Source: an uncultured Nitrospirota bacterium (GTDB lineage: Bacteria; CG2-30-53-67). From it: a DNA stretch of 33,531 nt. The notes below the pieces were generated by a model. It was not told the origin of the DNA. It did no database searches and saw only the letters and a program-made list of their open reading frames with translations. Positions 6,078 to 29,346 of this stretch are shown piece after piece. The stretch covers positions 12,034 to 45,564 of the forward strand of contig CAMYMF010000021.1 of the NCBI GenBank assembly GCA_947259355.1. Reading direction: 5' to 3'. The translations under genes were made by a program, and so were the position numbers. Position 1 is the stretch's first letter, and every line of letters begins with the position of its first letter.

Positions 6078-6106
6078 TTGACAGAATCTGCGCCAGCCGC
6101 CATATT
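6078..6106 (+). promoter_or_regulatory. Sigma-70 promoter for the ABC exporter operon
   Basis: A perfect TTGACA (6078-6083) is followed after 17 bp by CATATT (6101-6106, 4/6). It lies about 74 bp upstream of the ATPase start at 6180. Its position supports that start over an in-frame ATG at 5982, which would lie upstream of the transcript. Confidence 0.55.
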
Positions 6107-6179
6107 AGGACAGACCAAAAGGGAGCCGGCCAGTCCCAGCAGATCGATCGTGCTCATAACCGCCCAGATCGGCAAGACC

Positions 6180-6923: not shown

Positions 6924-6928
6924 TACTG

Positions 6929-9292: not shown

Positions 9293-9298
9293 CAGATC

Positions 9299-10498: not shown

Positions 10499-10530
10499 CC
10501 CGCAGCAGCGCGCCGGGCTAGCTACCCCAG
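10491..10530. terminator. Hairpin at convergent gene ends (possible bidirectional terminator)
   Basis: TAGCCCG (10496-10502) pairs with CGGGCTA (10514-10520). A larger alternative pairs CTGGGTAGC (10491-10499) with GCTACCCCAG (10521-10530). The two stop codons of the converging HlyD and lipoprotein genes are part of the arms. There is no T-run, so strong intrinsic termination is doubtful. Confidence 0.4.
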
Positions 10531-11003
10531 AACATCCAGTCGGTCGTTTCCATGTCAAATTCGGGAAGCAGGCCCTTTTCATCGGCGAATTCTCGCCCCA
10601 AGCCGATCAGTCGCCCATGTTCGAAGACGAGAGGAGTCAAACACTCATCGGGCACGATGGCTTCCCGGTAACTCCTGTCCCAGTACCCCCGCATACCGCC
10701 CAACGGTTCCGCATAGTAATAGACCACCCGATAGGTCTTGTCCCCTACGGTCCGGCTCTCGGCTCTGTAAGGATTGCGGACCTCGATGATTTGATAGTCG
10801 ACCAGACGACCCTGGTAATAGACCGGCTCCTGCACCCGCTCAACGTCAACCCCCATGATTCGCCCGACCTCCGCTTCAGTCATGCCGATCTCAAGCTGCT
10901 TGAGGCTTTCAATGTTTCTGGCCCGGATGTCCTCCGTCTGCAGATGGGCGCATCCCAGGAGTGCAACGATCAAGAAATAGAACGCCCACATATATCTTTT
11001 CAT
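10518..11003 (-). CDS. Small lipoprotein, BamE/SmpA-like fold candidate
   Basis: This 161-residue lipoprotein has unknown specific function. The N-terminus MKRYMWAFYFLIVALLGC is a signal peptide with a lipobox ending at Cys18. The mature part contains SLKQLEIGMTEAEVGRIMG, the pattern seen in BamE/SmpA-like domains, where a short helix-loop (GMT..EV..imG) opens the fold. It continues with strands YRVVYYYAEPLGG and LTPLVFEHGRLIGLG. The ATG at 11003 is chosen because AGGGA sits 6 nt upstream and it gives a compact signal peptide; GTG 11018 and ATG 11009 are in-frame alternatives. It is tail-to-tail with the HlyD gene. The lipoprotein call is firm, the BamE-like call moderate. Confidence 0.75.
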   Translation of the reverse strand: MKRYMWAFYFLIVALLGCAHLQTEDIRARNIESLKQLEIGMTEAEVGRIMGVDVERVQEPVYYQGRLVDYQIIEVRNPYRAESRTVGDKTYRVVYYYAEPLGGMRGYWDRSYREAIVPDECLTPLVFEHGRLIGLGREFADEKGLLPEFDMETTDWMFWGS

Positions 11004-11103
11004 TTCCATTCCCTGCACTTCTTTTTGACCAACAGATGCAGCACGGAGTTTCGATCTTGCTCCGCATCAGCCACGGCTCCATCCGGGCCCCGTGAGGCTC
11101 CTC

Positions 11104-11301
11104 TTACACCTTGTAGCAAAGGACCCGGATCAACCCGATGGTGGCCCCTCTGTCATCGGTGGTCGGCATATCGGAAATAGAGATGACCTCTTTGACATCA
11201 TTTTCCGAGAGGAACTTTTCTACTGTCGCATCAATATCAGCAAGCTCCTGCATCGTTTTCATTGGTTTGACTTCCGTACCAAAAGATTTTACCTTGTACA
11301 T
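11104..11301 (-). CDS. Small 65-residue protein of unknown function
   Basis: I do not recognise a named family. The 65-residue product begins MYKVKSFG and ends with GATIGLIRVLCYKV, with a charged helix-like centre (MQELADIDATVEKFLSEND) between. The strand-helix-strand pattern suggests a small alpha/beta fold. It has no signal peptide or membrane helix. It looks genuinely coded because AAGGAGG lies 10 nt upstream of the ATG. It lies upstream of the lipoprotein gene on the same strand with an 100-bp gap, so co-transcription is possible but not shown. An inverted repeat GTCTCA-N6-TGAGAC is found at 11346-11363 in its upstream region. Confidence 0.65.
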   Translation of the reverse strand: MYKVKSFGTEVKPMKTMQELADIDATVEKFLSENDVKEVISISDMPTTDDRGATIGLIRVLCYKV

Positions 11302-11345
11302 GGCTCATACCTCCTTTCGGTGACTCTCTTTCCCTCAAGAAGACC

Positions 11346-11363
11346 GTCTCATCATATTGAGAC
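11346..11363. repeat. Inverted repeat GTCTCA-N6-TGAGAC
   Basis: A perfect 6-bp inverted repeat lies about 45 bp upstream of the 65-aa gene. It could be an operator or a small hairpin. No clear promoter could be assigned around it. Confidence 0.35.
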
Positions 11364-11509
11364 ACCCCTATACTCCCCGACCTTCTACGTTTCTGCCGGT
11401 TTGATTTTAGCTCAGAATCGCGAAGTTGGAAACTGGAGCGATGTGGCGGAGATGACTGCCCGTTCCACCGGCTCATGTCGGCCTGGGTGTTGGCCGGTGA
11501 CAGCTTGGG

Positions 11510-11556
11510 CAGAAAAATGAACGGCCGGACGGTGAACACCAAGCCACCGTCCGGCC
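11510..11556 (-). terminator. Rho-independent terminator of the first pilY1 operon
   Basis: Perfect 12-bp arms (11523-11534 and 11545-11556, GGCCGGACGGTG/CACCGTCCGGCC) with a 10-nt loop are followed on the minus strand by GTTCATTTTTC. It lies about 40 bp past the pilY1 stop at 11597. Confidence 0.85.
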
Positions 11557-11596: not shown

Positions 11597-14500
11597 TTAC
11601 TCCTGATACCAGCCGTTGATGCGCAGCGCCGGATCGCCGCTGTCAGGAGGCGGTGGATCCCCCGGTATCGGATCGGGACCCGAGCCAGGATCGTCCACCC
11701 CGAAACGACCACGCTGATCGATAACAATGGTCTTTCCGTCCACCGCCTGCGCGGTGGCAGTGGTCTTGCCGGCCGGCGTGACTCTGACTTTGCTCCCGTC
11801 GGGACTGACCGTGATGATCTCACTGGATCCCGCACTCTCGGAGCAGAAGGCCCAAGTGTCTGCCGCACCGGTGGAAGCGATGAGGGTGGCCCGCCCTCGG
11901 TTCAGGATGGGAGCCGCATAGATCTTTGCGTTGCCCACGTAGCCGTCCCCGTCTCCGATAACGTATTTCGCTGTCCCGTCCTTGCTGCCGTCCGTTTTGT
12001 GCTTGGCGTAGATGGCATAGAAGCGGTTGTCCGTGTCACCGGCTGTACCGAAGTACACAACGAGATTCCCCGTGGAATCGAAGGCCAAAGCCGGTCGTGC
12101 ATAGATTTTGTTTGCCATGGGATCTGTATAGAGGATGCTCCCGACCCAGTCGTCATCCAGCGTGGAATCGGCGGTTTCTGCCGCAGGGTCAAAGGTGAAC
12201 TCCCAGAGCCGACCGATGAAATCGCCCACATAGGCGCGGTCCACGTAGCCGTCGTAATCGGAGTCAATGGCTGAGACCGAACCAGGGAGGAACGCGCCCG
12301 ACGGATCGGCGCAGTCGGTGCGCCGGAATTCCCAGATCTTGGAACCCGTTTCGATGTCGAGTGCGTAGACGGCAAAGCCGTCGTTGTTGTCGTTTTCGAT
12401 CCCCGATGAAATCATGGCGACATACTTCGTTGTGCCGTCCACTTTCATCCTGAGAATGCCGGGATGCGACCGGATACCGCCCAGATCGACCGCTCCCGGG
12501 AATTCCCAGAGCACCCCTGGATTGGCGGGGTCGGTGATGTCGAGCGCGAAGACCACATTCCGCTCAGCCCCCAATGGTGAGACCAGCACGGTGTGCCAAT
12601 CGGAAGCCGCGGGAGAGCCCATGTAGGAGAAGACGACATCCGCCACGGCCGGCGAGGCATCGACCTTGGCATCATCGTAGGGCGGAAAATCGAGGTTGTT
12701 CACGATCTGGGGATTGTTGTGTCTCGGAAGATACCGCCAGAGTTCCCCGCCGCTCTCGACCTTGTCCGCATAGATGGCGTGCAGCATGCCGTCGGTGGCA
12801 CCGACATAGACCATACGGTCCCGGTTGGCGTTGTTGTTCTTGAAGACCCGGAAGCTCTCCCGCTCATTGGAAGGCGACGCGTAGTACCAGAACCAGAAGG
12901 GATAGACCGGTCCCCCGACAATGGCCGGTGCGGAGTGATCGATCCCGCCGAGGGGCAGACCGGCGATGGAGGATACCTCGGCCGCTGTGAGACTGCCCGG
13001 GCATGCGGCGAGGTCACACCGGCTGTCGGTGGCATCGGAGCTGTAGATGGTGTTGTTCCCCTGCCCCGTGGCCGTCCAAAGGGGGGCAGCGGTGCTCGGA
13101 TCTGCCAGGATGTCCGCCACCCGGAATTTCCGGAAGTACCCCTCCGAGGGATCCGACGGCGCCATGAAGGAGCCCGCATAGATTGTCGCCTGATTGTTCT
13201 CGTCGGGATCGCGAGGATCAATGACGATCTCGGAGCGATAGAATTCTGTTCTGGCCACGTAGCTGAAGTTCATGTCGATCGTCTTAATGAAGGGCGTCAC
13301 GTTCACATCGTCGGTGTGCAATTCAGCCTTCCACCGAAGATCGGCGCCGTAGGTACCAAAGACCGCTGTCCAGCCGTTGCTTGCGTTCACTGGATACCAG
13401 TTTCGACCGCCATCGTTGGAAAGATAATAGGTAATGGACGTGTTGGGATAAACGACGTCCGTCACCTGCAATGTGGCACTCGTGATGGCATACTGGGTCG
13501 GATCGATATCGGCCACGTTCGTCGACTGCGCCACGCCGTCGGCGGCATAGTTGGTCAACGCTTCATTCAAATAGACGAAGGCCTTCTGCGCATCGTTTCC
13601 ATCGGCGATGAAGACATCGATATAGCCGTTCCCGTCGAAGTCACCGATACCGGCATTGTCGAAATCTCCTTCGTTGGCACCCAGATCGTTCATGTCAAAG
13701 GTAACAGGTCCTCCTGCGGAGGCATCGTATGTGTTCTCGAAGTAGAAAAGTTTTCCCGGGTGATCCGTTCCGATCATGAAGTCCGGCTTCGTGTCCTTAT
13801 TGAAATCGGCCACATTCAGGTTGGTGGCCTGGAAAACGTTACCGACGACGCAGCCAGCAACGGGATCACAGATGAAGTTCGCATTCCCGTCGTTCAGCAG
13901 CAGCTTTATCTCCGTAGAGTTGAAAGTACTCCCGACGACAATATCGATATCACCATCTCCATCAAAATCGGCCAGTCCGACGACATTTGTTCGGGGCCAG
14001 CCGGCATCGATCTCCTTGACAAACTGGAAGGTGCCATCCATGTTGTTTTTGAGATAATGAAGCCTCCCGGTGCCTGCGTCATTGGCCAGCACCAGATCGA
14101 GCCAGCCATCACCGTCAATGTCGGCGGTGGCCACCCCCGTTTCCCATAGCATGGGGGATACGGTGTGTTCGATCCCGTTGGGATTGGTGAAACTCGCGGC
14201 GCCGTCATTGAGCCAGATGCGAAGATGTCCCGCCCTGTCGTAGGAGGCCACATCCAGGTCTCCGTCGTTGTCGAAGTCCCCGGCGGCCATTCCCTTGACG
14301 GAATCTCCGTCACCGCAGTCAATAATCGTCTGCGTGGGGAAGTTACCGTCCAGCGTCGAATTTGGCAGAAAGGCAAGGGCACCGTTTGCAGAACAGCCGG
14401 TAGGCTGGTTGCCGCCCACCACCATGTCGTCATCGCCATCGCCGTCGAAATCACCACCGGCCGCGGATTTCATCCAGTTGGTGGAGACGGTGGTGGAGTT

Positions 14501-14818
14501 CATGCCGGTAAATTTAATGCCCGAGATCGGCAGGAGCAGACAATCCGTCCCGGTGCACTCCATATAGGTTTGCCCCTTTCCATCGCCCCAGCCGAATGTG
14601 GTGGTGTTTAAATCGTCTTTGTAGACGGCTGTATCAAACTGTTCCATCCCGCCGGTAAGTGCGAAGGGATTGAGATCGGTCTTTTCATCGCACGAATCCT
14701 GCGCAAATGCGGGAAACGACCCTAACAGAAACACGAAGAGCAGCGCGCTGAGGCATGATATGAGCGGCGTGCCTCCGCCTTCGCTTTTTTTATGGGTCAT
14801 CTGACTTGTTCGTCTCAT
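11597..14818 (-). CDS. pilY1: PilY1-type pilus tip/adhesin protein with FG-GAP repeats (copy 1)
   Basis: This 1073-residue exported protein is predicted to cap or prime type IV pili. A signal peptide of about 40 residues ends at FPAFAQ. The N-terminal third has six FG-GAP/VCBS-like repeats with calcium-type loops, among them DFDGDGDDDMVVGG, DFDNDGDLDVASYD, DIDGDGWLDLVLAND, DFDGDGDIDIVVGS and DFDGNGYIDVFIAD. A beta-sandwich-like middle follows (YYLSNDGGRNWYPV). The last 450 residues form the PilY1 beta-propeller: LGGIDHSAPAIV, MVYVGATDGMLHAIY, GELWRYLP, FALDITDPANPGVLWEFP and the calcium loop DSDYDGYVDRAYVGD. No von Willebrand A domain is seen, unlike Pseudomonas PilY1. The ATG at 14818 has GGAGGG upstream. 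It is the last gene of the minus-strand pilus operon and paralogous to the gene at 26101. Confidence 0.9.
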   Translation of the reverse strand: MRRTSQMTHKKSEGGGTPLISCLSALLFVFLLGSFPAFAQDSCDEKTDLNPFALTGGMEQFDTAVYKDDLNTTTFGWGDGKGQTYMECTGTDCLLLPISGIKFTGMNSTTVSTNWMKSAAGGDFDGDGDDDMVVGGNQPTGCSANGALAFLPNSTLDGNFPTQTIIDCGDGDSVKGMAAGDFDNDGDLDVASYDRAGHLRIWLNDGAASFTNPNGIEHTVSPMLWETGVATADIDGDGWLDLVLANDAGTGRLHYLKNNMDGTFQFVKEIDAGWPRTNVVGLADFDGDGDIDIVVGSTFNSTEIKLLLNDGNANFICDPVAGCVVGNVFQATNLNVADFNKDTKPDFMIGTDHPGKLFYFENTYDASAGGPVTFDMNDLGANEGDFDNAGIGDFDGNGYIDVFIADGNDAQKAFVYLNEALTNYAADGVAQSTNVADIDPTQYAITSATLQVTDVVYPNTSITYYLSNDGGRNWYPVNASNGWTAVFGTYGADLRWKAELHTDDVNVTPFIKTIDMNFSYVARTEFYRSEIVIDPRDPDENNQATIYAGSFMAPSDPSEGYFRKFRVADILADPSTAAPLWTATGQGNNTIYSSDATDSRCDLAACPGSLTAAEVSSIAGLPLGGIDHSAPAIVGGPVYPFWFWYYASPSNERESFRVFKNNNANRDRMVYVGATDGMLHAIYADKVESGGELWRYLPRHNNPQIVNNLDFPPYDDAKVDASPAVADVVFSYMGSPAASDWHTVLVSPLGAERNVVFALDITDPANPGVLWEFPGAVDLGGIRSHPGILRMKVDGTTKYVAMISSGIENDNNDGFAVYALDIETGSKIWEFRRTDCADPSGAFLPGSVSAIDSDYDGYVDRAYVGDFIGRLWEFTFDPAAETADSTLDDDWVGSILYTDPMANKIYARPALAFDSTGNLVVYFGTAGDTDNRFYAIYAKHKTDGSKDGTAKYVIGDGDGYVGNAKIYAAPILNRGRATLIASTGAADTWAFCSESAGSSEIITVSPDGSKVRVTPAGKTTATAQAVDGKTIVIDQRGRFGVDDPGSGPDPIPGDPPPPDSGDPALRINGWYQE

Positions 14819-14854
14819 GAGTATCCCTCCGTCGGAGTGGAGATATCTATATAA

Positions 14855-15355
14855 TTATTGGAAGTTCCCTTGATTCATTTCCCCGCCGCCGGCCTGGGGG
14901 TGCGATCCCCCGGTGCCCTGATTGAAGGCCAGCACGACCCGGATGGCCGCCCGTGCATTGTTGGGGCCAATCCCCTCGGAGCGGACCATGATCCGCCCCG
15001 GTTCCGTCGTCAGGGGATCCGCGACGGTGAGATTCACATCCTGCGTGCCGTCGCCGTCCACGTCGCCATTCCAGCTGCCCAGGGCGATGATGTCCGCGTC
15101 CTGTTCCTTGATGGTGCCCGCCGCCCCATCGTAGGGGAAGAACGGCAGCAGCACGTCCCGGGCTCTTTCCGCCCCGGCTTCGGCGAACTGCATGGCCATA
15201 TTGGTCTTGCGGTCATTGCCCGCCAGCTCGATTTCAATGCTGGATGAGAGCATGGAACTGATGCTGATAATGCTCAGGGCGAGCAGCAGCAAGAGAGTGG
15301 TGATCAGCACCATGCCTGCTTCGTGTGAGTTCATCTCTCTGCGTTCTCTGTTCAC
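14855..15355 (-). CDS. pilX: PilX-type minor pilin (copy 1)
   Basis: This 166-residue PilX-family minor pilin sits between pilW and pilY1. The N-terminus has a short basic leader, then a long hydrophobic helix (GMVLITTLLLLLALSIISISSML), continuing into IELAGNDRKTNMAMQFAEAGAERARDVLL. The ALxxAEAG-like helix is typical of PilX and GspK-like pilins. As in other PilX proteins, the usual Glu at position 5 of the mature pilin is absent. The GTG start at 15355 is preceded by AGGAGG at 6 nt, better than the internal ATG at 15334. The C-terminus is Gly/Gln-rich. Minor pilins and PilY1 form the tip complex that primes pilus assembly in characterised systems; this role is inferred here. Confidence 0.85.
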   Translation of the reverse strand: MNRERREMNSHEAGMVLITTLLLLLALSIISISSMLSSSIEIELAGNDRKTNMAMQFAEAGAERARDVLLPFFPYDGAAGTIKEQDADIIALGSWNGDVDGDGTQDVNLTVADPLTTEPGRIMVRSEGIGPNNARAAIRVVLAFNQGTGGSHPQAGGGEMNQGNFQ

Positions 15356-15373
15356 GTAAAACCTCCTGCCGCG

Positions 15374-16405
15374 TTAAATTCCGTAGTTTCGAACGCGCAC
15401 GGTGTTGGTTGCCGTTCTTCGGATGAAACGGATGTAATCGGCCGCGTTATAACCCGCGTCCGTCGCCGGGTCGTGGTTTTCCAGGACGAATTCTGTCGCC
15501 GGCCGGCCGGTGACACTTCGTATCGCCCGTGCCGAGCGCGCCGTAAAGCTGACCCGGACGGCACGGACCTGGTCGAGCTGGGCTGCGGCCAGCCCATTAT
15601 TGTCCCAGGCGTTGATCTCCAGGGTATTGTCCGTATTGTCCGTGTCCAGCCCGAAGGCGAGCTGCATGTCTTCGATGTTCTGGGCGACGATCTGCGGCGG
15701 GCCGGGAAGGATGTTGTTCCCGCTGTAACTCAATGTATTGTAGGGCACCCGCTGAAGGGCGCTGCCGCTCACGAAATACTTGTACCAGAAGACGTGGTAG
15801 ACGCTGTCGCCCGCGCTGTAGCCCGGAAACGTCTGATCCTGCTGCCCGCCGGGCAGGTTGAAGGTGGCGAGCCCCGCATTATGGTTCACCACGTTACCCG
15901 CCACACTGGTCACCTGAAAGAAGTGTGCCGACGCGCCGTTGGAGATCATAAAGAGATCCCCCGCAGCCAGCGCACTGGCATCGTTGAGCGTGAAGGGATT
16001 CGTTGCGTTGGCGGCATTGGCGCCGAGCGTCGTGATCAAGCGGGTCGTCAGGATGTCAAAGCTGTCCGTGTTGTTGTCGATGGCGATGGGTCCGCCAGAA
16101 GCCAGGGCAATGGTTTGAGCCGTGTTGTTATCCTGCACGACGATGGGCCGTGCGTTGTTCAGATCGACGGTTCCCGTTCCGCCCAGGGAGACACCGCCCA
16201 TGCCGTACCCCGCGTTCCGAAACTCCCGGCTCAACATCTGGTTGATAAAGCGAAGGTTCTGCTGTACCGCCACCGCCTCGCCTTGATTGGTAAAGGCCTC
16301 CTGCTGTCCGATGAATGTGCCGTAAGCACCACCCACCAGCAGGAGCCCGACCACCATGGCGATCATGAGTTCCACAATTGTAAATCCCGCAGATCCGATA
16401 CGCAT
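15374..16405 (-). CDS. pilW: PilW-type minor pilin (copy 1)
   Basis: This 343-residue minor pilin has a prepilin peptidase site at SAG/FTIVELM, with Glu5 present, followed by the hydrophobic helix IAMVVGLLLVGGAYGTF. The next segment, QEAFTNQGEAVAVQQNLRFINQMLSREFRNAGYG, is the PilW amphipathic region, including the conserved RNAGYG. The body is Asn/Thr-rich, as expected for a secreted pilin head. The ATG at 16405 is preferred for its upstream GGGAGAG and short leader. A GTG at 16423 overlapping the pilV stop (GTGA) is an alternative that adds six residues. It belongs to the fimT-pilV-pilW-pilX-pilY1 operon and is paralogous to the protein at 24620-25564. Confidence 0.87.
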   Translation of the reverse strand: MRIGSAGFTIVELMIAMVVGLLLVGGAYGTFIGQQEAFTNQGEAVAVQQNLRFINQMLSREFRNAGYGMGGVSLGGTGTVDLNNARPIVVQDNNTAQTIALASGGPIAIDNNTDSFDILTTRLITTLGANAANATNPFTLNDASALAAGDLFMISNGASAHFFQVTSVAGNVVNHNAGLATFNLPGGQQDQTFPGYSAGDSVYHVFWYKYFVSGSALQRVPYNTLSYSGNNILPGPPQIVAQNIEDMQLAFGLDTDNTDNTLEINAWDNNGLAAAQLDQVRAVRVSFTARSARAIRSVTGRPATEFVLENHDPATDAGYNAADYIRFIRRTATNTVRVRNYGI

Positions 16406-16419
16406 GAGGCTCTCCCTGA

Positions 16420-16833
16420 TCACATGATGGTTGTCAAAACGACGGACCGGTTTCGGTTGGCCGGATTGGTGTCGGGATCAAAGAGCTTCCAGGAGACGGT
16501 GACCGTCACCCGATTCAAGTCCGGCGGAATGGGCGCCACGGTGACGGCTCCTTGTCCGCTTGGCAGCGCATTCGCGACCTGGGCCTGCCAGCCTACCAGG
16601 TCGATGGTCGTGGAGGCGGCGAAGGTTGCCACGTTCGATGGGTCACTGCGAAAGCGATCCACCATTCCTTGCGCCAGCGCGTTGGCCGTGGTCATACTGG
16701 ACGCGACGGTGTTGCTCCGCACCGCCATGACCTGCATGGTGTTCATGGCCAGCAACCCCACGGAGAGAACCAGCAGGGCGACCAACACCTCGATCAGCGT
16801 GAAACCTTTCTCGCTCTTGTCTTTTCTTTTCAT
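16420..16833 (-). CDS. pilV: PilV-type minor pilin (copy 1)
   Basis: This 137-residue minor pilin has the prepilin cleavage site EKG/FTLIEV with Glu5, then the helix LVALLVLSVGLLAMNTMQVMAVRSN. This matches the PilV family, where LLAMxxMQxxAxRxN is characteristic. A short soluble head of about 95 residues follows. The ATG at 16833 has GAGGAG at 9 nt. A longer frame starting at 16884 would overlap the 3' end of fimT and put a 17-residue non-leader in front. The gene lies 25 bp after fimT and its stop overlaps the upstream option for pilW. The paralogue is at 24152-24598. Confidence 0.87.
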   Translation of the reverse strand: MKRKDKSEKGFTLIEVLVALLVLSVGLLAMNTMQVMAVRSNTVASSMTTANALAQGMVDRFRSDPSNVATFAASTTIDLVGWQAQVANALPSGQGAVTVAPIPPDLNRVTVTVSWKLFDPDTNPANRNRSVVLTTIM

Positions 16834-16858
16834 CACAAGACGCTCCTCATCCGATGCG

Positions 16859-17434
16859 CTAATCCCAGGACGAAGTGTGGTCATCCCATTTGGTAATCGC
16901 CGTACTGCCGGAGGCAGACAGCGTCACGGCATAGTTTCGCAGATTGCCGGGGTCCAGGTCAGCCTGCGCAGGATCAAAGTGAAGATAGACTTGACCGAAT
17001 AGAACGTTTCCCGCCGTGTCCCGCAAGGAGCCATCGGCCCGGAACACCACCGAAGCGCCTGAAAGATCCACGCCGCCGCCCGTGTTGAGGGCCACCCCTC
17101 CGTCTCTTCCAAAGTTGGTTTTCCCATCAAAAGTGTGCGCCCAGAGCGCCTCTCCGGCATCGATGGCACCGTTGGTGTTGGCGTCCAGGAAGGCCACCAG
17201 GCTTTCCGGTTCGGCCGTGCTGAAGTTTACCGTCACCGGTTGGGACCGCTTGATGGCCTCGAATCTTGCTTTCTGCAGATTCGAACGAATCTCATTGACA
17301 TCACTGCGCAGTTGAAAATGCGGTCCCCAATCGCTGACGGCCGGCGCGGAGAACGCCACGGTCAAGGCGAGGATGGAGAGTGTGATCAGGAGCTCAATGA
17401 ACGTGAAACCTTCTGTTTTGCTTTCAAGAAACAT
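16859..17434 (-). CDS. fimT: FimT/GspH-type minor pseudopilin (copy 1)
   Basis: This 191-residue pilin-like protein of the FimT/GspH family is first in the minus-strand pilus operon. The cleavage site is KTEG/FTFIELL with Glu5, followed by the helix ITLSILALTVAFSAPAVSDW. The GspH region has NLQKARFEAIKRSQPVTV, the conserved ARxEAIKR helix. A loop reading DANTNGAIDAGE resembles a calcium loop and is common in GspH-like heads. The ATG at 17434 has GGAGGG at 6 nt and gives the usual short leader; the longer frame beginning at 17509 would run over the sigma-54 promoter. Its counterpart is at 23527-24150. Confidence 0.87.
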   Translation of the reverse strand: MFLESKTEGFTFIELLITLSILALTVAFSAPAVSDWGPHFQLRSDVNEIRSNLQKARFEAIKRSQPVTVNFSTAEPESLVAFLDANTNGAIDAGEALWAHTFDGKTNFGRDGGVALNTGGGVDLSGASVVFRADGSLRDTAGNVLFGQVYLHFDPAQADLDPGNLRNYAVTLSASGSTAITKWDDHTSSWD

Positions 17435-17471: not shown

Positions 17472-17487
17472 TGCAAAAGTGATGCCG
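17472..17487 (-). promoter_or_regulatory. Sigma-54 (-24/-12) promoter of pilus operon 1
   Basis: On the minus strand CGGCATCACTTTTGCA has GG and GC dinucleotides exactly 10 bp apart (GG at 17485-17486, GC at 17473-17474). The TTGC-A half is perfect. It ends 38 bp before the fimT start, leaving room for a short leader. The matching promoter of operon 2 supports it. Confidence 0.75.
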
Positions 17488-17526: not shown

Positions 17527-17592
17527 TTATTAGGCATTAGTTTTACCGCGCGTTTACAGCCCCTGGGAAGCTTCGTCGCCGTTGTGTAGGCC

Positions 17593-17619
17593 GTTTCACG
17601 ATTATGTAACGGATTACAC
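17593..17619 (-). promoter_or_regulatory. Conserved 27-bp upstream element of pilus operon 1 (candidate enhancer)
   Basis: Read in the direction of the operon, the element is GTGTAAT-N3-TTAC-N2-AA-N2-GTGAA, containing the palindrome TGTAA-N4-TTACA. It agrees with the element upstream of operon 2 (23333-23359) at 20 of 27 positions. Its promoter-proximal edge is 107 bp from the -24 GG, against 105 bp in operon 2. This is where sigma-54 activators usually bind. Confidence 0.6.
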
Positions 17620-17716: not shown

Positions 17717-17762
17717 AGAGGACGTCACCGGTATTCGCATGCGGTCAGCGCGGGGGGGGGTG

Positions 17763-18644
17763 ATGCGAGAAACGATACGGCAAATGATTGTGCTCGAGGA
17801 GTCGATTCATCGGTTCTACCGGGACATGGCGGGCCACTTCGAGGGGATGGGCTACCTGCACGAGTTCCTCGAGGCGTTGGCCGAAGACGAGAAGGAACAT
17901 GTCGAGATACTCACCAGGGTGTGCGATAGGCTGGACCGGGATGAGCGCTTTGAAGCGGAGCTGACGATCGAGCCATCAGACCTGGAGCACATATTGCATC
18001 CGCTTCGTCAGGCCCGTGCCAGGTTTGACCGGCAACGCCCCTCTCGGAAAGAGCTTTTCCAGTGCATCGTCTCTCTCGAGTTTTCGGAGTGGAATGATAT
18101 CTTCTCGTACACTCTCTCTTCGCTCGTGCAGCAGGACAAGTCCTTCCTGTGTGAGCTGGAGAAGATTCAGCGGCACAGAGTCCGGATCCAGCAATTCTTC
18201 GAGTCCATCCCTGAGGGTCAGACATTTCTTGAAAAGATGCGCCGCCTTCCGCCAACGTGGACGGAAAGGATCCTGATTGTGGAGGATAATCGGACGGTGG
18301 CGGAGCTTCTCAAGGCGATTCTAGGGCGTATCGCAGCAGTGGATATTGCGGAGAACGGGAAAGACGGCCTGAAGAGGCTCTCGGGGCACTACTACCGCGC
18401 CATTGTCTCCGACGTCGACATGCCGGTCATGGGCGGCATTGAATTTTACAAACACGCGGCGGGAAAATACCCCCATATGCGCGAGCGTTTTCTCTTCTTC
18501 ACCGGCGATTCCTCACCGGAGCGGCTCGCCTTTTTCACCAATAACAACCTGCGCTATTGCATCAAACCCGCTCGTTTCCAGGCCGTTCGGGACACCGTGC
18601 TGCAGATGATGAACCAGGCTCCCGGCGGCGGAACGCACGCATGA
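17763..18644 (+). CDS. Ferritin-like domain fused to a response-regulator receiver domain
   Basis: This 293-residue protein has two parts. Residues 1-160 form helices like rubrerythrin/ferritin-like proteins: LEESIHRFYRDMAGHF with E12/E13, then LAEDEKEHVEIL with an E43-x-x-H46 pair. A second helical pair (LEFSEWNDIF; EKIQRHRVRIQQF) has a Glu and a His but no exact second ExxH, so the metal site may be incomplete. Residues about 173-290 form a receiver domain: acidic pair in VEDN, phospho-acceptor D217 in SDVDMPVMGG, the Thr in FFTGD, and Lys in CIKPA. There is no DNA-binding domain. The ATG at 17763 follows a G9 tract; an in-frame ATG at 17739 lies upstream of it. It is divergent from pilus operon 1. 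The function is likely signal relay sensitive to iron, oxygen or peroxide, which is inference. Confidence 0.8.
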   Translation: MRETIRQMIVLEESIHRFYRDMAGHFEGMGYLHEFLEALAEDEKEHVEILTRVCDRLDRDERFEAELTIEPSDLEHILHPLRQARARFDRQRPSRKELFQCIVSLEFSEWNDIFSYTLSSLVQQDKSFLCELEKIQRHRVRIQQFFESIPEGQTFLEKMRRLPPTWTERILIVEDNRTVAELLKAILGRIAAVDIAENGKDGLKRLSGHYYRAIVSDVDMPVMGGIEFYKHAAGKYPHMRERFLFFTGDSSPERLAFFTNNNLRYCIKPARFQAVRDTVLQMMNQAPGGGTHA

Positions 18645-21566: not shown

Positions 21567-23102
21567 ATGTTATCTTTGAATTTAGAGACGAATAGAGCCG
21601 AAAAGAGCGAATCCTCAACACCTAGACATAATAATATGCCGAAACCTAGCATCAAAACCATAACTGTCCGAAATCTGACTAATATACTCCTCATCACATC
21701 CCTTATCGCCCTGATCGCCATTGGGTTCGGCTTCCGGATGATTTCTTACAAAATCATCGAAAACAAAACGTTTGCCATCGCGGAGGTGATCATCGCCGGA
21801 CTGACATCCCACATGAAAGCCGACATCATGGACAAGCGGGATTATTTCCTGGAAGAGATCAGATCGCTCTATCAGGTGCAGGAGGTGTCTCTGATACGCT
21901 CCCCAGACGTAACCGGTCAGTTTGGGTCGGGCTTTGACCTGGAACAAGAAGGGGGCCCCGTGGCAAAAGAGGTCTTTGAGACGGGACAGCCTGTGTTTAT
22001 TCTCGATGAATTCAGTCGCACGCCCCATATCCGCGTACTCATTCCCTACATTGCTACCCGTGAAGGAAACCTGAACTGTCTGAGTTGTCATGCGGTCGAT
22101 GAGGGGACGGTGCTGGGCGCCGTGGGCATCAAGCTCGATCTAACGGACTACCGGAGCCTCGTGATGAAAGTACTGACGGCCATCACACTGCTTGCCTTGG
22201 TCATGATCGTTCTGATTTGCGTCAATATTTTCAGGACCATCCAACGGCATATCAAGGACCCTTTGGAGAAACTGATGACAAAGGCTCGGAAAGCCTATCT
22301 CGATCAGGAACCGCTGAATCCAGAGCAATTCGACAGCATGGAGTTCGAGGACATCGCCGAGAAATTCAACATGTTCAACACGGAAGTCCTAGCAAATCAA
22401 AACCTGATCAACGAGAAGAACTACGAGCTCCTGGCCCTGAACGATGAGATTGAGGATACGCTGAAAGAGACCGTCTTCACCATGGGTGTCGTGGAGGAGC
22501 AAAGATCACGGGAAACGGGAGACCACACGAAACGAGTCACCCGTTATTCCAACCTCCTGGCCACGAAACTGGGACTCCCCCAGCGGGACATCGACTTGGT
22601 TACGGCGGCGGCCCCTCTGCACGATATCGGAAAACTGGGCATCGCCGACTCCATCCTGCTCAAACCGGGCAAGCTGACGGATGAAGAATTTGAGATCATC
22701 AAGAATCACGCCGGTGTGGGCTACGCCATGTTGGTACATTCCCGTCGTGAGATACTGAAATCCGCTGCGATCATCGCCCACCAGCATCACGAAAAATGGG
22801 ATGGCACGGGCTACCCACAGGGACTCAAGGGAGAAGCCATCCACATCTATGCAAGAATCGTTGCCCTCGCAGACGTGTTCGATTCCCTCTCATCCGATCG
22901 AGTCTACAGACCTGCCTGGGACAAACAAAGAGTACTCGACTGGATAGAATCTCAACGGGGCAAACACTTTGAACCCCGTCTGGTGGACCTTTTCATGGAG
23001 AACCTTCCGGCTTTCCGGGAGATCCAGGAAACCCACCTGGGAGTCGTGAACGATGGTCATGATTATGTTGAGCTCCATCCCGAAACCGCAGAGTCCCGCT
23101 AA
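21567..23102 (+). CDS. HD-GYP phosphodiesterase with periplasmic c-type heme motif
   Basis: This 511-residue inner-membrane signalling protein is predicted to hydrolyse c-di-GMP (some HD-GYPs also cut cGAMP). A helix near residues 39-59 (ILLITSLIALIAIGFGF) and a second near 205-225 enclose a periplasmic sensor. The sensor carries a CxxCH c-heme motif at C171-H175 (NCLSCHAVDEG), so it probably binds covalent heme. A HAMP-like linker and coiled coil follow. The HD-GYP domain has HTKRV, HDIGK (from H352), NHAGVGYAML, HQHHEKWDGTGYP (GYP at 415-417) and ALADVFDSLSSDRVYR, so catalytic residues look intact. Start choice is unsure: ATG 21567 and ATG 21636 both lack good ribosome sites, and a possible promoter (21548-21576) would favour 21636. 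It lies 0.4 kb upstream of pilus operon 2, on the same strand. Confidence 0.9.
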   Translation: MLSLNLETNRAEKSESSTPRHNNMPKPSIKTITVRNLTNILLITSLIALIAIGFGFRMISYKIIENKTFAIAEVIIAGLTSHMKADIMDKRDYFLEEIRSLYQVQEVSLIRSPDVTGQFGSGFDLEQEGGPVAKEVFETGQPVFILDEFSRTPHIRVLIPYIATREGNLNCLSCHAVDEGTVLGAVGIKLDLTDYRSLVMKVLTAITLLALVMIVLICVNIFRTIQRHIKDPLEKLMTKARKAYLDQEPLNPEQFDSMEFEDIAEKFNMFNTEVLANQNLINEKNYELLALNDEIEDTLKETVFTMGVVEEQRSRETGDHTKRVTRYSNLLATKLGLPQRDIDLVTAAAPLHDIGKLGIADSILLKPGKLTDEEFEIIKNHAGVGYAMLVHSRREILKSAAIIAHQHHEKWDGTGYPQGLKGEAIHIYARIVALADVFDSLSSDRVYRPAWDKQRVLDWIESQRGKHFEPRLVDLFMENLPAFREIQETHLGVVNDGHDYVELHPETAESR

Positions 23103-23332: not shown

Positions 23333-23359
23333 GTGTAATGCATTACCCAACTGTGAATC
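23333..23359 (+). promoter_or_regulatory. Conserved 27-bp upstream element of pilus operon 2 (candidate enhancer)
   Basis: The element reads GTGTAAT-N3-TTAC-N2-AA-N2-GTGAA, with the perfect palindrome GTAATGCATTAC. Twenty of 27 positions equal the element upstream of operon 1 (17593-17619). It ends 105 bp before the -24 GG. Confidence 0.6.
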
Positions 23360-23424
23360 CCTTTACCGAAAAGAGCACGCCAATGCATGCCTGCAGTGCT
23401 GAAACCATCCAAATAACATAGTAA

Positions 23425-23462: not shown

Positions 23463-23478
23463 TGGCATGCCTGTTGCA
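23463..23478 (+). promoter_or_regulatory. Sigma-54 (-24/-12) promoter of pilus operon 2
   Basis: TGGCATGCCTGTTGCA matches the TGGCACG-N4-TTGCA consensus at all but one informative position, with GG (23464-23465) and GC (23476-23477) 10 bp apart. The fimT start is 49 bp downstream of the GC. Confidence 0.82.
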
Positions 23479-23526: not shown

Positions 23527-24150
23527 ATGAAAGATATCAGAGGGTTTACACTGGTTGAATTGGTCATTGCACTTGCGGTGGTGACCCTCATGCTGGCCAT
23601 GGGCGTGCCGTCCTTTTCCGATTATAACAGGGCCCAGAAAGTGAAATCGGCGGCCACCGCCATCCACGTGCAGATGCAAAAGGCCCGGATGGAGGCCATC
23701 AAGAGGAATAACAACGTGGGGCTGGAGTTGGTCGCCGGATCGCCGAATCAACTCAGGCTCTTTGAAGACAACGACGGGGACAACGACTATGGCGATGGAG
23801 ACAACAATGGCGTGCGCAACGTCGGAGAGCCTACCTTGCTCACGGTGAACCTGGAGGATGATATTTTGTTCAACACCAATGCCGGCGGCGCGGGTCCCGA
23901 TGGCGATCCCATTCCGGCGGCGGCAAACGAGGGGGTGACCTTTCCCGGAAGTCATCCTGTGCGCACACTGGTTTATGCACCCAACGGTGCGGTTTTCACC
24001 AACGGCGGCACCGTTTATGACGGCGCGGTCTATCTCAAATTGACCGAGGACGACAGCGTCCCTGACATCCCGGAATATGCCGTGACCGTTGGTCAATTCG
24101 GTGCAATCCAGCTCTATCGCTTCGATGGCGCGACCTGGCAGGAGAAATGA
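23527..24150 (+). CDS. fimT: FimT/GspH-type minor pseudopilin (copy 2)
   Basis: This 207-residue pilin-like protein is first in operon 2. The leader is only MKDIRG, then the prepilin site G/FTLVELV with Glu5 and the helix IALAVVTLMLAMGVPSFSDY. The GspH motif is QMQKARMEAIKRNNNVGLEL, matching the copy 1 ARxEAIKR helix. The head has an Asp/Asn-rich loop (EDNDGDNDYGDGDNNG) that could bind calcium and is longer than in copy 1. The ATG at 23527 has AAGGAG at 8 nt; the longer frame from 23467 would overlap the sigma-54 promoter and is rejected. The next gene starts 1 bp after the stop. Confidence 0.87.
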   Translation: MKDIRGFTLVELVIALAVVTLMLAMGVPSFSDYNRAQKVKSAATAIHVQMQKARMEAIKRNNNVGLELVAGSPNQLRLFEDNDGDNDYGDGDNNGVRNVGEPTLLTVNLEDDILFNTNAGGAGPDGDPIPAAANEGVTFPGSHPVRTLVYAPNGAVFTNGGTVYDGAVYLKLTEDDSVPDIPEYAVTVGQFGAIQLYRFDGATWQEK

Positions 24151-24151
24151 G

Positions 24152-24598
24152 ATGAGAAAGCGCATCCCACAGGAAGGCGGATTCACACTCCTGGAGACAC
24201 TCATTGCCATGTTTGTCTTCTCCATCGGTTTGCTCGGCGTCATGTCGATGCAGGTACTCGCCGTTCGCGGCAACTCGTTTGGCGATAACAACACCCGGGC
24301 AAACACACTCTGCATCGAGATGATAGAACGTATCGTCAACAACGCGGGCGCCATCAACGCCTACGACAACCTTGACACCCGCACCACCGGGGGTCCGGCC
24401 AGCGGTGTGGCCCTGAACGATTACCGGGACTGGTCCCAGCGGATTCAAGGCGAACTGGGCCCCGCGGGCTTCGGGACCGTGACGATTCAGAACAATCTGC
24501 CCGAGCCAGGCGCCAATATCGTGAACCTGCAGGTCGGTTGGAGTGATGGCGCGAACCTGCGGTCCGTGCAGATGAGCACAGTTATCAGCTACCCCTAA
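24152..24598 (+). CDS. pilV: PilV-type minor pilin (copy 2)
   Basis: This 148-residue minor pilin has the prepilin site EGG/FTLLETL with Glu5, then the helix IAMFVFSIGLLGVMSMQVLAVRGNS, which shares the PilV LLxxMxMQxxAxRxN pattern with copy 1. The head is about 110 residues. The ATG at 24152 begins one base after the fimT stop, and AGGAG sits 7 nt upstream inside fimT, so the two are probably coupled. It is followed by pilW after 21 bp. Confidence 0.87.
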   Translation: MRKRIPQEGGFTLLETLIAMFVFSIGLLGVMSMQVLAVRGNSFGDNNTRANTLCIEMIERIVNNAGAINAYDNLDTRTTGGPASGVALNDYRDWSQRIQGELGPAGFGTVTIQNNLPEPGANIVNLQVGWSDGANLRSVQMSTVISYP

Positions 24599-24619
24599 TA
24601 GAGAGAGTGGAGATGCCAC

Positions 24620-25564
24620 ATGAGAGGTCTAGTCATTAATGATCAGGGATTTTCCCTCGTCGAACTTCTGGTGACGATGGGTGTCTTAGCATTCGTGATT
24701 GGGGGGGTCTATTCCACTTCCATTGTTCAGTCCAAAAACGTCAAGGTCACGAACGACGTCGGCAAAGTCCAACAGAACATCCGGATGGCCACGGGCATGG
24801 TGGAGCGGGACCTCCGCTTCGCCGGATATGGCGTCGGGGACGGGAACATCAAGAACTCCATGACCAATGCCATGATGCCCGCGCTGAAGATCACCAACAG
24901 CAATCCCGATCGCATCGATCTGGTCTATATCGATGTCGGCAGCAAACTGACGGTGGACAAGCAAATGCCGAACACGTCGGCCGTCATCAAGATTGATCCA
25001 GCCGATCCGCCGACCCCTAAGGGATACAAGCCCGGCGACGTCATTATCATTACCGACGGCGAGCACATGGATTTAATGGGGATCACGAGCATCAACGACA
25101 CCGATGCACACATCGGGCACAACACGGGAAAAGTCGACGGCGTCACACTCAACACGAACAAGAATCTCAGTACATCATACGGCCCCGGCGCCTTTGTCTT
25201 CAAGGCCTACCAGGCCTCCTACTACATCGACAGCGGGAACCTCGTGATCGACCCCGATAGTTCCGGCCCAAAACCGGCTGAGATTCTGGTCCCCAACATT
25301 GAAACCCTGGAGGCGCTGGCGGGCGTCGATCTGAACGGAGACAACCAGGTGGACTCTACCGAATGGAAGAGCGGCGACTACGACAGCGGCGCCGATGATC
25401 TCATCGCCGTGCAACTCTCGCTCTCTTCCTTGTCCCCGAGCCTTGATCCCGATTACATGACCAATGCCGTGACTGTGGGAGACCAGACGCTGCCTGCCGG
25501 TCTGAACCATCGACGGCGACTCTATACTCGCACCGTGAACCTCAGAAACCTGGCCAGAAGATAG
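24620..25564 (+). CDS. pilW: PilW-type minor pilin (copy 2)
   Basis: This 314-residue minor pilin has the prepilin site DQG/FSLVELL with Glu5 and the helix VTMGVLAFVIGGVYSTSIVQ. The next helix, KVQQNIRMATGMVERDLRFAGYG, corresponds to the PilW QQNLRF..RNAGYG region of copy 1. The head is Asp/Thr/Asn-rich, including GVDLNGDNQVDSTEW, a calcium-loop-like segment. The ATG follows GTGGAG at about 9 nt. It lies between pilV and pilX in the same order as operon 1. Confidence 0.86.
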   Translation: MRGLVINDQGFSLVELLVTMGVLAFVIGGVYSTSIVQSKNVKVTNDVGKVQQNIRMATGMVERDLRFAGYGVGDGNIKNSMTNAMMPALKITNSNPDRIDLVYIDVGSKLTVDKQMPNTSAVIKIDPADPPTPKGYKPGDVIIITDGEHMDLMGITSINDTDAHIGHNTGKVDGVTLNTNKNLSTSYGPGAFVFKAYQASYYIDSGNLVIDPDSSGPKPAEILVPNIETLEALAGVDLNGDNQVDSTEWKSGDYDSGADDLIAVQLSLSSLSPSLDPDYMTNAVTVGDQTLPAGLNHRRRLYTRTVNLRNLARR

Positions 25565-25574
25565 GAGGGTTGAC

Positions 25575-26081
25575 ATGAGAAACAGATGCAGCGTCGGGAA
25601 GGACGAGTCCGGTATGGCCTTGATCGTTTCTCTTCTTACCCTGGTTTCGTTGACGGCCATCGGTTTCATGGCCGTTTACAACGCGACGGTGGAGACGAGC
25701 ATTTCCGGAAACGAGCGGAAAGCCTCGCAGGCGTTGATGTACGCGGGAGCGGGTATAGAACACGCCCGGCGAGCACTCCTGAGTCAGTATCCCTGGGACG
25801 GTTCTCCCGCCCACGGAGCAGATGTTCTCAACTCGGGGGTCGACACCAACGGGGATGGTATCAAAGAGGTGAACATCGACGGTGGGGCTACCGACTATCA
25901 GGTGGTGGTGTCGGACCCGCTGCCAACCATCCCTGAACAGATCAAAGTACTCAGTACCGGCTACGGGCCCAACAATTCCGTCCGGAAAATAGAAGCGTGG
26001 CTACGCTACAGAGATCCCGATGCTGCCGGGTCCTACGCCATGGCCGGATCGAACGAACACAACGACGGTGTTAGTGATTAG
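25575..26081 (+). CDS. pilX: PilX-type minor pilin (copy 2)
   Basis: This 168-residue PilX-family protein has the N-terminal segment ESGMALIVSLLTLVSLTAIGFMAVY, lacking Glu5 like copy 1, followed by TSISGNERKASQALMYAGAGIEHARRALL. The AGxGxEHARRxLL helix parallels the AEAGAERARDVLL helix of copy 1. The head contains a DTNGDGIKEVNID loop resembling a calcium site. The ATG at 25575 has GGAGGG at 5 nt. The pilY1 gene starts 19 bp after the stop. Confidence 0.85.
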   Translation: MRNRCSVGKDESGMALIVSLLTLVSLTAIGFMAVYNATVETSISGNERKASQALMYAGAGIEHARRALLSQYPWDGSPAHGADVLNSGVDTNGDGIKEVNIDGGATDYQVVVSDPLPTIPEQIKVLSTGYGPNNSVRKIEAWLRYRDPDAAGSYAMAGSNEHNDGVSD

Positions 26082-26100
26082 ACACGCAAAGGAACAGTTC

Positions 26101-29100
26101 ATGAAACGGTATATCCTTGTCGTGATACTAGCGGTTGTCAGCCTGGCGTTGACACCGGCTGCGGTGCAGGCAGGACCCTGCGGTGGGGGAACCAAGACGT
26201 TTACCGAGGATTTCTCCATCAGCACCGTCAACCGTGACAGCTCGGCCAGCACGGAAGCCGGCTGGAACGACCTGGAAGGAGAAATCCGCCTTCCATCGAC
26301 GGCCGCCGCATACACGGTGGAGAGCCCCTCGGCCCCTGACTTTATGTCAACTCTCTGGAACTACCGGGCAGTCGATATCGGTGACTTCGATGGCGACGGC
26401 AAGGACGACCTCATTGTAGCAGGCAACGGCGGCGCCATTGCCATTCTCACCCAGGGCTCTGCATTCGCGGCAACGGCCGTCTCCAACGGGGACAGCGACG
26501 ACATCTGGGATGTGGCGGCTTCGGATTTCGACGGCGACGGCGACGTCGATTTTGTCACCCTTGACGAAGACGGACAGGTACGGCGATGGGAGAACGACGG
26601 CTCGATGAATTTCTCTGTCGCCATTTCTTTCACCAACGGCTACGCCTCAGGCTCAGCGGAGAAGTCTCTCGCCGTCGGCAGACATGCATCCAATGGACGC
26701 GACGACAATCTCTTCATCGGACATATTCAAGATCAGTCAAAGGATTACTACGTCCGGGTCTATCTCAACAATGGATCCGATTTCGACTATTACTCCAGCA
26801 ATGACATCAATCCCGGCGGCAAGAACGCGCGCCATATGGTGGCTGCCGGCGACCTGGACGGTAACGGCTACGACGACATACTGGTCGCGAAAAGTGGCGG
26901 TGGCCAAGATATCCAGCTGATGCTGGCCGACGGTTCGGGCAATTTCACCGCGCCCTTTGATGTGGGCGTTATCAACAGTGGAACCGATATCGAGATCGCC
27001 GACTGGGACGGCGACGGTGATTTAGACTTTTTAACGGGGACCGACAGCAGCGCCGACTGGTATGAAAATGACGGCAGCGCCAACTTCACAAAACAGAATC
27101 TCTTTTCAGGCAACACCACCGATCTGGCAGTGGGAGACCTCAATAGCGACGGAGCGCCGGACGCGTTCTATCTCCATACTAATTCTGGAAATCTGCAATG
27201 GGTGATTAGTCAAACATCGGGCTACGCGACGTCCGCGGTGGCCCAGTCAAACAATATAGCGGCCGCCCTTCCTGCAGGTTCGGCCATCGATGCGGCAACG
27301 ATTACCAAGTCTCCTGGAGATTCTTTCGATATACGGGGCTGCGATCCGGCCTTCAACACGATGGATCCGGGAAGCTGCATCAAGTATTTCCTGACCAATG
27401 TAAACCCTGCCTCCAATCCGGGAAGCTGGGAGCAGTTTGACCCGGGCACCTCCGGTCTCTTTACCACCTCCGGCAATGAGCTTTACTTCAAGGTAGAGTT
27501 TGAGGGGGATGGCGCCACGACGTCCACCGTCAACACCCTGGCCATCGAGTACAGCTATTCCGGGGAACGCTACATCTACCGAGCCGAAAGCGTCGTGGAC
27601 AAACAGGCCCGGGTCTTGGTTCAAGGAAGCTTCAAGCAGGGCGTCACTCCTTCAGAAGGGATGCTCGAGCCCTACGATCTTACGGTGGTACCTCCCGCCC
27701 GGATGGCAGAGATAAAAGGCGTGGTCTGGAATGGACCGAGAATAGTCTACACCAGCGACGGGGCCGGCAACCGTGTCGATTATACCGCAGCCAGCTCCGG
27801 CCTCACCGGTGCACAGGTCAGCGACGTGCAAGCCCTTTCCCTCGGGGGGATCGACCATTCGGCACCGGTGATCATGCGGGGCGTGGTATTTCCCAGCTGG
27901 TACTATCTGTCCGGCAATTCAAGCCCCGTTGAAAAATCGGCATTCGACGTCTTTCGCTCCCTGCACCATCAAAGAACCACTTCCTGGTTCATCGGGGCCA
28001 ACGATGGAATGATCCACGCCTTCGACGGAGAGCCCGAAACGAGCGGCGGCGCCAGCAATCCCGACTTCGGAAAGGAACTCTGGGCCTATATCCCCTCGGA
28101 GTATGCCACGGATATCATCAACAATACGGATGCAGACCCCTCCAACGACGTGAAAGTGGACGTACCCGGAACTCTGGCCGACTGCTACGATCCGCGCCCG
28201 CTCTACCAGAAATTCAGGTCCCTCCTGGTGATGCCTTTGGCGGGCGACCGGAACGACATCGTCTGTCTCGATGTGACAGATCCCGTGAATCCGGAGGTCA
28301 TGTGGGAGTTTCCATCGGCGCCAACCAGTGACTACGACAATATCCGGGGCGTGCTGGCCATGGGACGGATCCTGGACGATGCCGCACCCTTGGCGGGCGA
28401 ACCGACAGGCCGCTTTGTCGTCATCGGAACCAGTGCTGTGCAGTGGCCGGGTGTAAGCCCGAAACACCCTGTAACCGGCGCTCCCGGTCCAGGCTACACG
28501 GTGCGGATCTTCATACTGGATGCCATCACGGGGACGTTGATCAAGGACTTTCCGATCTATTATCCCACAACGTTGGCTAACTACGCGCCTCCCGGACCGA
28601 GCGTCGCAGATCGTGACAAGGACGGCTATCTGGACATCATATTCTATCCTGACCTTTACGGGGACCTAAAGATCGTGTCACTGGGCTCGAGGATCTTAGG
28701 CAGCTTCCAGATCGACGAAGACGAAGACCCCAATCTGTGGACGCAGGAGACTTTCTACGAAGATGTCGATCCCACCTTTGATGATCTCGCCTTCGGCTAT
28801 GGCAGAGTGGCTGTGGGGCACGCGACCAATGGTGACCTCCTTGCTTTTTATGGCACGGCAGGGGACGGCGACAATCGCTTCTACGGCATCTGCGTGATGG
28901 GCACCTGCACCGAAAGGGATCCGCTGTTCATTGTTGGAGACGAAGGGAGTTACCTGCTGCAAGAGCGGGTCATCGCCTCTCCGGTCGCAATCAACAACAA
29001 TGTCTTCTTCTTTGGCACCGGCAATGAATACATCGACAGCGGGACACCTCAACCCTACGGTATCGACCAGATTCTTCCGTGCAGCGTCACCCCGCCTTCA

Positions 29101-29346
29101 ACGACGCTCTATGCGGTAAAACTGGGCTTGGGCGGCACCGGTACAGACATCGACTCGGTCGCCCATTTGGTCACCAAACAGTTTGAGGACACAGCGGCGA
29201 CCCCGCAGGCCGTCGGTGAAAGCGTGGTCGGCGTAACCAAAGATGGGGACATTATAGTCGAGGGCTCTCCCTTCTCCGAGGGGTCCGAAGGCGGCGGCAT
29301 TGGTGACAAATACATCCGCATCCTGGGATGGATCGAAATTTTCTGA
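26101..29346 (+). CDS. pilY1: PilY1-type pilus tip/adhesin protein with FG-GAP repeats (copy 2)
   Basis: This 1081-residue exported protein ends operon 2. The signal peptide runs to VQA near residue 24. FG-GAP/VCBS-like loops follow: DFDGDGKDDLIVAG, DFDGDGDVDFVTLD, DLDGNGYDDILVAK, DWDGDGDLDFLTGT and DLNSDGAPDAFYLH. A middle beta-rich part follows (CIKYFLTNVNPASNPGSW). The PilY1 propeller has LGGIDHSAPVIM, SWFIGANDGMIHAFD, ELWAYIPSEY, VCLDVTDPVNPEVMWEFP and DRDKDGYLDIIFYPDLYGD. As in copy 1, no von Willebrand A domain is visible, and both end in an R-I-x-G-W motif near the C-terminus. The ATG at 26101 has AAGGAA upstream; the in-frame ATG at 26020 lies inside pilX and is rejected. Confidence 0.9.
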   Translation: MKRYILVVILAVVSLALTPAAVQAGPCGGGTKTFTEDFSISTVNRDSSASTEAGWNDLEGEIRLPSTAAAYTVESPSAPDFMSTLWNYRAVDIGDFDGDGKDDLIVAGNGGAIAILTQGSAFAATAVSNGDSDDIWDVAASDFDGDGDVDFVTLDEDGQVRRWENDGSMNFSVAISFTNGYASGSAEKSLAVGRHASNGRDDNLFIGHIQDQSKDYYVRVYLNNGSDFDYYSSNDINPGGKNARHMVAAGDLDGNGYDDILVAKSGGGQDIQLMLADGSGNFTAPFDVGVINSGTDIEIADWDGDGDLDFLTGTDSSADWYENDGSANFTKQNLFSGNTTDLAVGDLNSDGAPDAFYLHTNSGNLQWVISQTSGYATSAVAQSNNIAAALPAGSAIDAATITKSPGDSFDIRGCDPAFNTMDPGSCIKYFLTNVNPASNPGSWEQFDPGTSGLFTTSGNELYFKVEFEGDGATTSTVNTLAIEYSYSGERYIYRAESVVDKQARVLVQGSFKQGVTPSEGMLEPYDLTVVPPARMAEIKGVVWNGPRIVYTSDGAGNRVDYTAASSGLTGAQVSDVQALSLGGIDHSAPVIMRGVVFPSWYYLSGNSSPVEKSAFDVFRSLHHQRTTSWFIGANDGMIHAFDGEPETSGGASNPDFGKELWAYIPSEYATDIINNTDADPSNDVKVDVPGTLADCYDPRPLYQKFRSLLVMPLAGDRNDIVCLDVTDPVNPEVMWEFPSAPTSDYDNIRGVLAMGRILDDAAPLAGEPTGRFVVIGTSAVQWPGVSPKHPVTGAPGPGYTVRIFILDAITGTLIKDFPIYYPTTLANYAPPGPSVADRDKDGYLDIIFYPDLYGDLKIVSLGSRILGSFQIDEDEDPNLWTQETFYEDVDPTFDDLAFGYGRVAVGHATNGDLLAFYGTAGDGDNRFYGICVMGTCTERDPLFIVGDEGSYLLQERVIASPVAINNNVFFFGTGNEYIDSGTPQPYGIDQILPCSVTPPSTTLYAVKLGLGGTGTDIDSVAHLVTKQFEDTAATPQAVGESVVGVTKDGDIIVEGSPFSEGSEGGGIGDKYIRILGWIEIF

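Follow-up and report, generated by a model that had tools for sequence, protein, structure and literature searches.

Tandem dyads upstream of minor-pilin/PilY1 operons as the predicted binding site of a PilR-like activator in an uncultured bacterium

Two pilus operons are found in the 33,531-nucleotide stretch of DNA analysed here (the window), and upstream of both the initial annotation had noticed a shared 27-bp element, proposed as the binding site of a PilR-like activator. The question raised by this locus is whether the similarity marks an operator and, if so, which regulator would read it. The dyad motif described below is very probably the binding site of a particular PilR-like activator, a response-regulator enhancer-binding protein (EBP), defining a small conserved pilus regulon, since the motif accompanies one such EBP in related and unrelated bacteria. 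The genome to which the window belongs (G000; 3.1 Mb, 89.7% complete) was compared with seven relatives of its class, and the genomes were scanned by pattern searches and with a sequence-only profile.

Structure and position of the shared element

The 27-bp element was indeed present upstream of both pilus operons, with 20 of its 27 positions equal, whereas the best 27-mer in 60 pairs of shuffled 200-bp regions reached only 15-18 matches. The pattern GTGTAAT-N3-TTAC-N2-AA-N2-GTGAA matched without mismatches at 17595-17619 (-) and 23333-23357 (+). With up to three mismatches allowed, it had no further match in the window, 0.02 matches being expected per dinucleotide-shuffled window. As had also been claimed, the surroundings are dissimilar: in the element-aligned flanks identity is at background level, both in the 60 bp upstream (15/60) and at 36-100 bp downstream (15/64).

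The extent of 27 bp did not hold, the full unit being longer. It consists of two tandem dyads of ~16 bp, (G/A)TGTAAY-NN-RTTACA(C/T), exactly 20 bp apart from centre to centre, and the 27 bp first described cover dyad 1 and the first half of dyad 2 (Table 1). At both sites in the window dyad 1 stands out clearly, reading TGTAAT-NN-(A/G)TTAC(A/C). Dyad 2 opens with GTGAA in the own genome but is degenerate there, and it is clear or perfect in relatives, as in GTGTAATCGATTACATAGTTGTGTAACCCGTTACAT of G005; the spacing between the two centres is always 20 bp across sites. A first pattern, in which GTGAA stood for the first half of dyad 2, did not detect the sites of the relatives, where TGTAA is found instead; a position matrix applied to the pilus loci recovered these.

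Table 1. Positions of the pilus operons, their sigma-54 promoters and the operator dyads (window coordinates, except for the third site)
Feature	Position	Strand	Basis or remark
Target operon 1	11597..17434	-	Pfam
Operon 1 GspH/FimU-like	16859-17434	-	Pfam
Operon 1 prepilin	16420-16884	-	Pfam
Operon 1 PilW	15374-16423	-	Pfam
Operon 1 PilX	14855-15355	-	Pfam
Operon 1 PilY1 with FG-GAP repeats	11597-14818	-	Pfam
Target operon 2	23527..29346	+	Pfam
Operon 2 GspH/FimU-like	23527-24150	+	Pfam
Operon 2 prepilin	24089-24598	+	Pfam
Operon 2 PilW	24620-25564	+	Pfam
Operon 2 PilX	25575-26081	+	Pfam
Operon 2 FG-GAP protein in PilY1 position	26020-29346	+	Pfam
Sigma-54 -24/-12 promoter CGGCATCACTTTTGCA	17472..17487	-	Pattern scan
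Sigma-54 -24/-12 promoter TGGCATGCCTGTTGCA	23463..23478	+	Pattern scan
Operator dyad 1 GTGTAATGCATTACCC	23333..23348	+	Exact match; 7/8 palindromic pairs; profile R1 37.2 bits, E 6.1e-9
Operator dyad 2, degenerate GTGAATCCCTTTACCG	23353..23368	+	Aligned to clear dyads in relatives; 2/8 pairs
Operator dyad 1 GTGTAATCCGTTACAT	17604..17619	-	Exact match; profile R1 35.6 bits, E 2.0e-8
Operator dyad 2 GTGAAACGGCCTACAC	17584..17599	-	Aligned to clear dyads in relatives; 4/8 pairs; 20 bp from dyad 1
Third site	G000:C23:14712	+	Upstream of 110-residue secreted-type protein, PilY1 and minor pilins

The distances to the -24 box given by the initial annotation, 107 and 105 bp counted to the GG, were reproduced. 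At all eight sites found in the own genome and its relatives, 94-106 bp lie between the end of the element and the -24 box, within the ~80-200 bp upstream of a -24/-12 promoter where sigma-54 enhancers are placed. The centre of dyad 1 is 113-114 bp from the box at three sites and 123-125 bp at the other five, forming two distance classes about one helical turn apart. Multiple dyad-symmetric sites in helical phase, a further mark of such enhancers, were likewise found, dyad 2 being weak in the own genome.

Since the two pilus operons are paralogous in content, the element might be a mere remnant of a recent duplication of operons and leaders, and not an operator. This reading is contradicted by the background identity of the flanks and by the sites of the relatives; other genomes show the same symmetry of the dyads, the same constant 20-bp spacing and the same distance classes, and tandem dyads recur in another phylum. 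A duplication remnant is therefore hardly credible.

Several further features of the locus were recorded. FG-GAP repeats occur in both proteins in the PilY1 position. The one in operon 2 has a weak PilY1 match (G000:C21:39937-40170) and no significant Pfam PilY1 domain match. The gene divergent from operon 1, at 17739-18644 (+), encodes a rubrerythrin-like stretch (residues 17-70) joined to a receiver domain (residues 178-281). Directly upstream of operon 2, at 21567-23102 (+), lies the gene of an HD-domain (HD_5) protein, which could be a link between cyclic-di-GMP and pili.

Distribution in the genome and its relatives

The element is not randomly placed. In the scan of the own genome at up to one mismatch, three sites were detected, all of them upstream of PilY1/minor-pilin operons, and the reversed control pattern gave no match. 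The third operon has its own sigma-54 -24/-12 box, TGGTACGCATCTTGCT. Its first gene codes for the 110-residue secreted-type protein (L047:4895-5227), for which no Pfam match was obtained; small proteins like this one also occupy the first position of PilY1 operons in relatives and Nitrospirota.

Conservation in pilus-operon promoters, the other expectation attached to the element, was borne out as well, with four other genomes of the family carrying it upstream of sigma-54 boxes and pilin/PilY1 operons (G002, G003, G004 and, twice, G005). A profile of the eight sites, run over the own genome and the seven relatives, returned these eight at E<=2.6e-8, a fit that is given by construction, so that what is informative is the lack of further sites and the occurrence of those in Nitrospirota. 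The remaining matches in the eight genomes were either at the same place on the other strand or had E>=0.03. The eight sites scored 35-44 bits, compared with a best score of 17.9 bits outside the family (98-genome set, 93 other genomes, stricter filters). A related-loci search with the PilY1 of the window found no relative. The nearest relative, G001, which belongs to the same genus, is without the operator, the EBP or any PilY1 match, which suggests that the whole module has been lost or that its assembly has gaps.

The candidate activator

The candidate EBP is an NtrC-type response regulator, with the Pfam domains Response_reg, Sigma54_activat and HTH_8 identified in the G005 and G002 proteins. 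Of its gene in the own genome, the edge of contig C23 leaves no more than the final ~195 codons, and the receiver would lie beyond the contig end. The five genomes that bear the site (G000, G002, G003, G004 and, twice, G005), and only these among the eight, contain its HTH at 74-100% identity, compared with no more than 48% identity in the three genomes without the site (G001, G006 and G007). Thus, site and EBP agree in all eight genomes, occurring together in five and missing together from three. EBPs of this type in the family and in Nitrospirota share the recognition helix VSYKTLLTKIK(D/E)Y, which occurs in no other aligned EBP of the own genome. NCBIfam names for the EBP (AtoC, NtrC, PEP-CTERM regulator) were dropped, all of them scoring below the curated cut-offs.

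Gene order points in the same direction. The EBP gene adjoins the site in G005:C107 and G005:C53 and lies within ~0.9 kb of it in G002:C14, and it comes after a kinase gene in G002, G003, G004 and G005:C107. The EBP gene of G003 and G004 lies on a different contig from the site, behind genes for a prepilin peptidase and a histidine kinase (domains were checked with Pfam for G004, and for the kinase in G002). No kinase for the EBP was found in the 89.7% complete assembly of the own genome, where the best candidate has ~29-33% identity, perhaps as a result of the incomplete assembly. Directly downstream of the EBP part, a further pilin cluster was observed (L048, G000:C23:66000-77385; 7355-10220, -), in which pattern and profile scans detected no operator and which has no obvious sigma-54 box.

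An alternative reader of the dyads would be the genome's canonical PilR, whose gene follows pilB-pilT-pilC-pilS on contig C5. A canonical-looking pilB-pilT-pilC-kinase-EBP locus does exist there (L169, G000:C5:98000-116000; 4311-11551), its genes being named from sequence and order rather than by a family search, and in other bacteria sigma-54 pilin promoters are under PilR control. However, the EBP of this locus is a different one. Its recognition helix, MSFRSFRYKLSKYDI, differs from the helix that tracks the site, and the protein itself is closest in the tree to the EBP encoded next to the pilin genes of G006, a genome without the site. In Pseudomonas aeruginosa, moreover, PilR sites are marked by TGT-N11-AGA and nearby GTCT elements (PMC6058289), whereas the operator described here is a tandem TGTAAY-NN-RTTACA dyad, a consensus without these hallmarks in a comparison made by eye and with the consensus only. 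Recognition of the dyads by the canonical PilR is thus unlikely, and two PilSR-like systems appear to be present in the genome. The proposal of a PilR-like activator is therefore supported as to the type, an NtrC-type EBP being implicated by co-occurrence and adjacency, and has to be amended as to the protein, the candidate being not the canonical PilR but part of a second PilSR-like system.

A regulator of the TyrR/GcsR type was also considered. Upstream of a sigma-54 promoter, GcsR/TyrR-like EBPs of Pseudomonas bind palindromes in tandem whose arms read TGTAAC/TGTAAA (PMC4894688), similar to the dyads in half-sites and tandem arrangement, and the window also contains glycine cleavage genes. 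In contrast with this reading, the profile locates sites in the own genome only at the three pilus promoters, hence none at the glycine cleavage genes, and the EBP that neighbours the site and co-occurs with it is a response regulator with a receiver domain. The known systems also differ in having amino-acid genes as targets, 18-bp repeats with N4 or N6 centres and no link with pili; compared with their sites (TGTAAA-N6-TTTACA or TGTAACG-N4-CGTTCCG), both arms and centre of the dyads are different. An assignment to this type is highly improbable.

The reading that we favour, with a probability of about 0.88, takes the element for an enhancer (upstream activating sequence) that serves a sigma-54-dependent pilus regulon and predicts that it is bound by the type of EBP encoded on contig C23. 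This EBP would join a receiver and an AAA+ sigma-54 activation domain to a Fis-type HTH with the recognition helix VSYKTLLTKIKDYxL. One EBP dimer would bind each TGTAAY-NN-RTTACA dyad and, as 20 bp amount to about two helical turns, the two dimers would be placed on nearly the same face of the DNA, an arrangement that may favour assembly of the active AAA+ ring. By DNA looping, the ring would contact the sigma-54 polymerase at the -24/-12 boxes ~95-105 bp downstream and open the promoter. The three operons, each comprising a minor-pilin set and a PilY1-type tip protein, would in this way be switched on together, and the EBP itself would probably be controlled by the histidine kinase whose gene is next to its own in relatives. 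From binding onward, the scheme follows the established mechanism of NtrC-type activators. The tandem dyads, their distance to the sigma-54 box, the restriction to pilus operons and the co-occurrence and adjacency of the EBP are read in the sequences, and from them we infer binding, ring assembly, activation and kinase control.

Nitrospirota sites and known systems

The HTH of the EBP served as the sole criterion in choosing comparison loci from other genomes, mostly Nitrospirota. Tandem dyads with the same 20-bp spacing were found in G115 (two places), G139, G103 and G146, and a single dyad in G105. At E<=0.1 there were 21 distinct places; a sigma-54 box scoring 11 bits or more is within reach of 16 of them, as compared with 2.9% of random positions in a control (40-220 bp, either strand) whose reach is close to, and not identical with, that used for the 21 places. 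Ten of these 16 box-bearing places are followed by a prepilin gene or a small secreted-type protein, and four of the latter are followed by a protein that begins like PilY1, as judged by eye from the translations. In Candidatus Manganitrophus (Nitrospirota), a prepilin peptidase, kinase-like frames, the EBP, pilins, a dyad, a sigma-54 box, minor pilins and PilY1 (assigned by Pfam) are encountered within 14 kb.

The association is not uniform in this phylum. In 32 of 50 Nitrospirota genomes with this HTH type, no site was detected at E<=0.1; either the pairing of site and HTH is looser in Nitrospirota, or the sites have diverged beyond the profile. Dyad enrichment at prepilin sigma-54 promoters of the Nitrospirota loci was not significant (p=0.16; 9 vs 52 promoters). 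The bare dyad count in 80 loci was 12, 6 of them from three family records, against 8 for the reversed control pattern, and in those 80 loci only position and tandem structure discriminate, not the bare count.

The predicted system resembles PilSR/PilR of Pseudomonas aeruginosa, Geobacter sulfurreducens and Myxococcus xanthus (PilS1R1, PilS2R2) in that a two-component NtrC-type EBP is encoded with pilus genes and is here predicted likewise to act on sigma-54 promoters from an upstream site; in Myxococcus, a second set, pilR2S2, is known (PMC6060248). It differs in that its targets are minor-pilin/PilY1 operons and in that its EBP is distinct from the canonical-looking PilR of the same genome. 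Another similar case is DVU2114 of Desulfovibrio vulgaris, a sigma-54-dependent response regulator that was mapped to pilin promoters and whose motif is conserved in a few relatives (PMC3333781); however, its target pilin genes are most similar to those of Tad/Cpa pili. A text search of open papers, a scope outside which most subscription papers fall, including a survey of PilR sites in Geobacter, returned nothing on this site or combination, and the novelty of the motif is not proven.

The 27-bp similarity spotted by eye has thus turned out to be part of a longer conserved operator. Whether a dedicated second PilSR-like system, with its own operator code, controls the tip (PilY1/minor pilin) operons apart from the fibre, the pair having been kept in at least two phyla, is in our judgement an evenly balanced matter. 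If true, the pilus tip regulon would be readable from DNA alone, and control of the tip operons would be set apart from canonical PilR control. The predicted activator-operator pair for pilus tip genes can be read from sequence and is testable in uncultured lineages and in Nitrospirota, so that regulons can be drawn even from fragmentary genomes.
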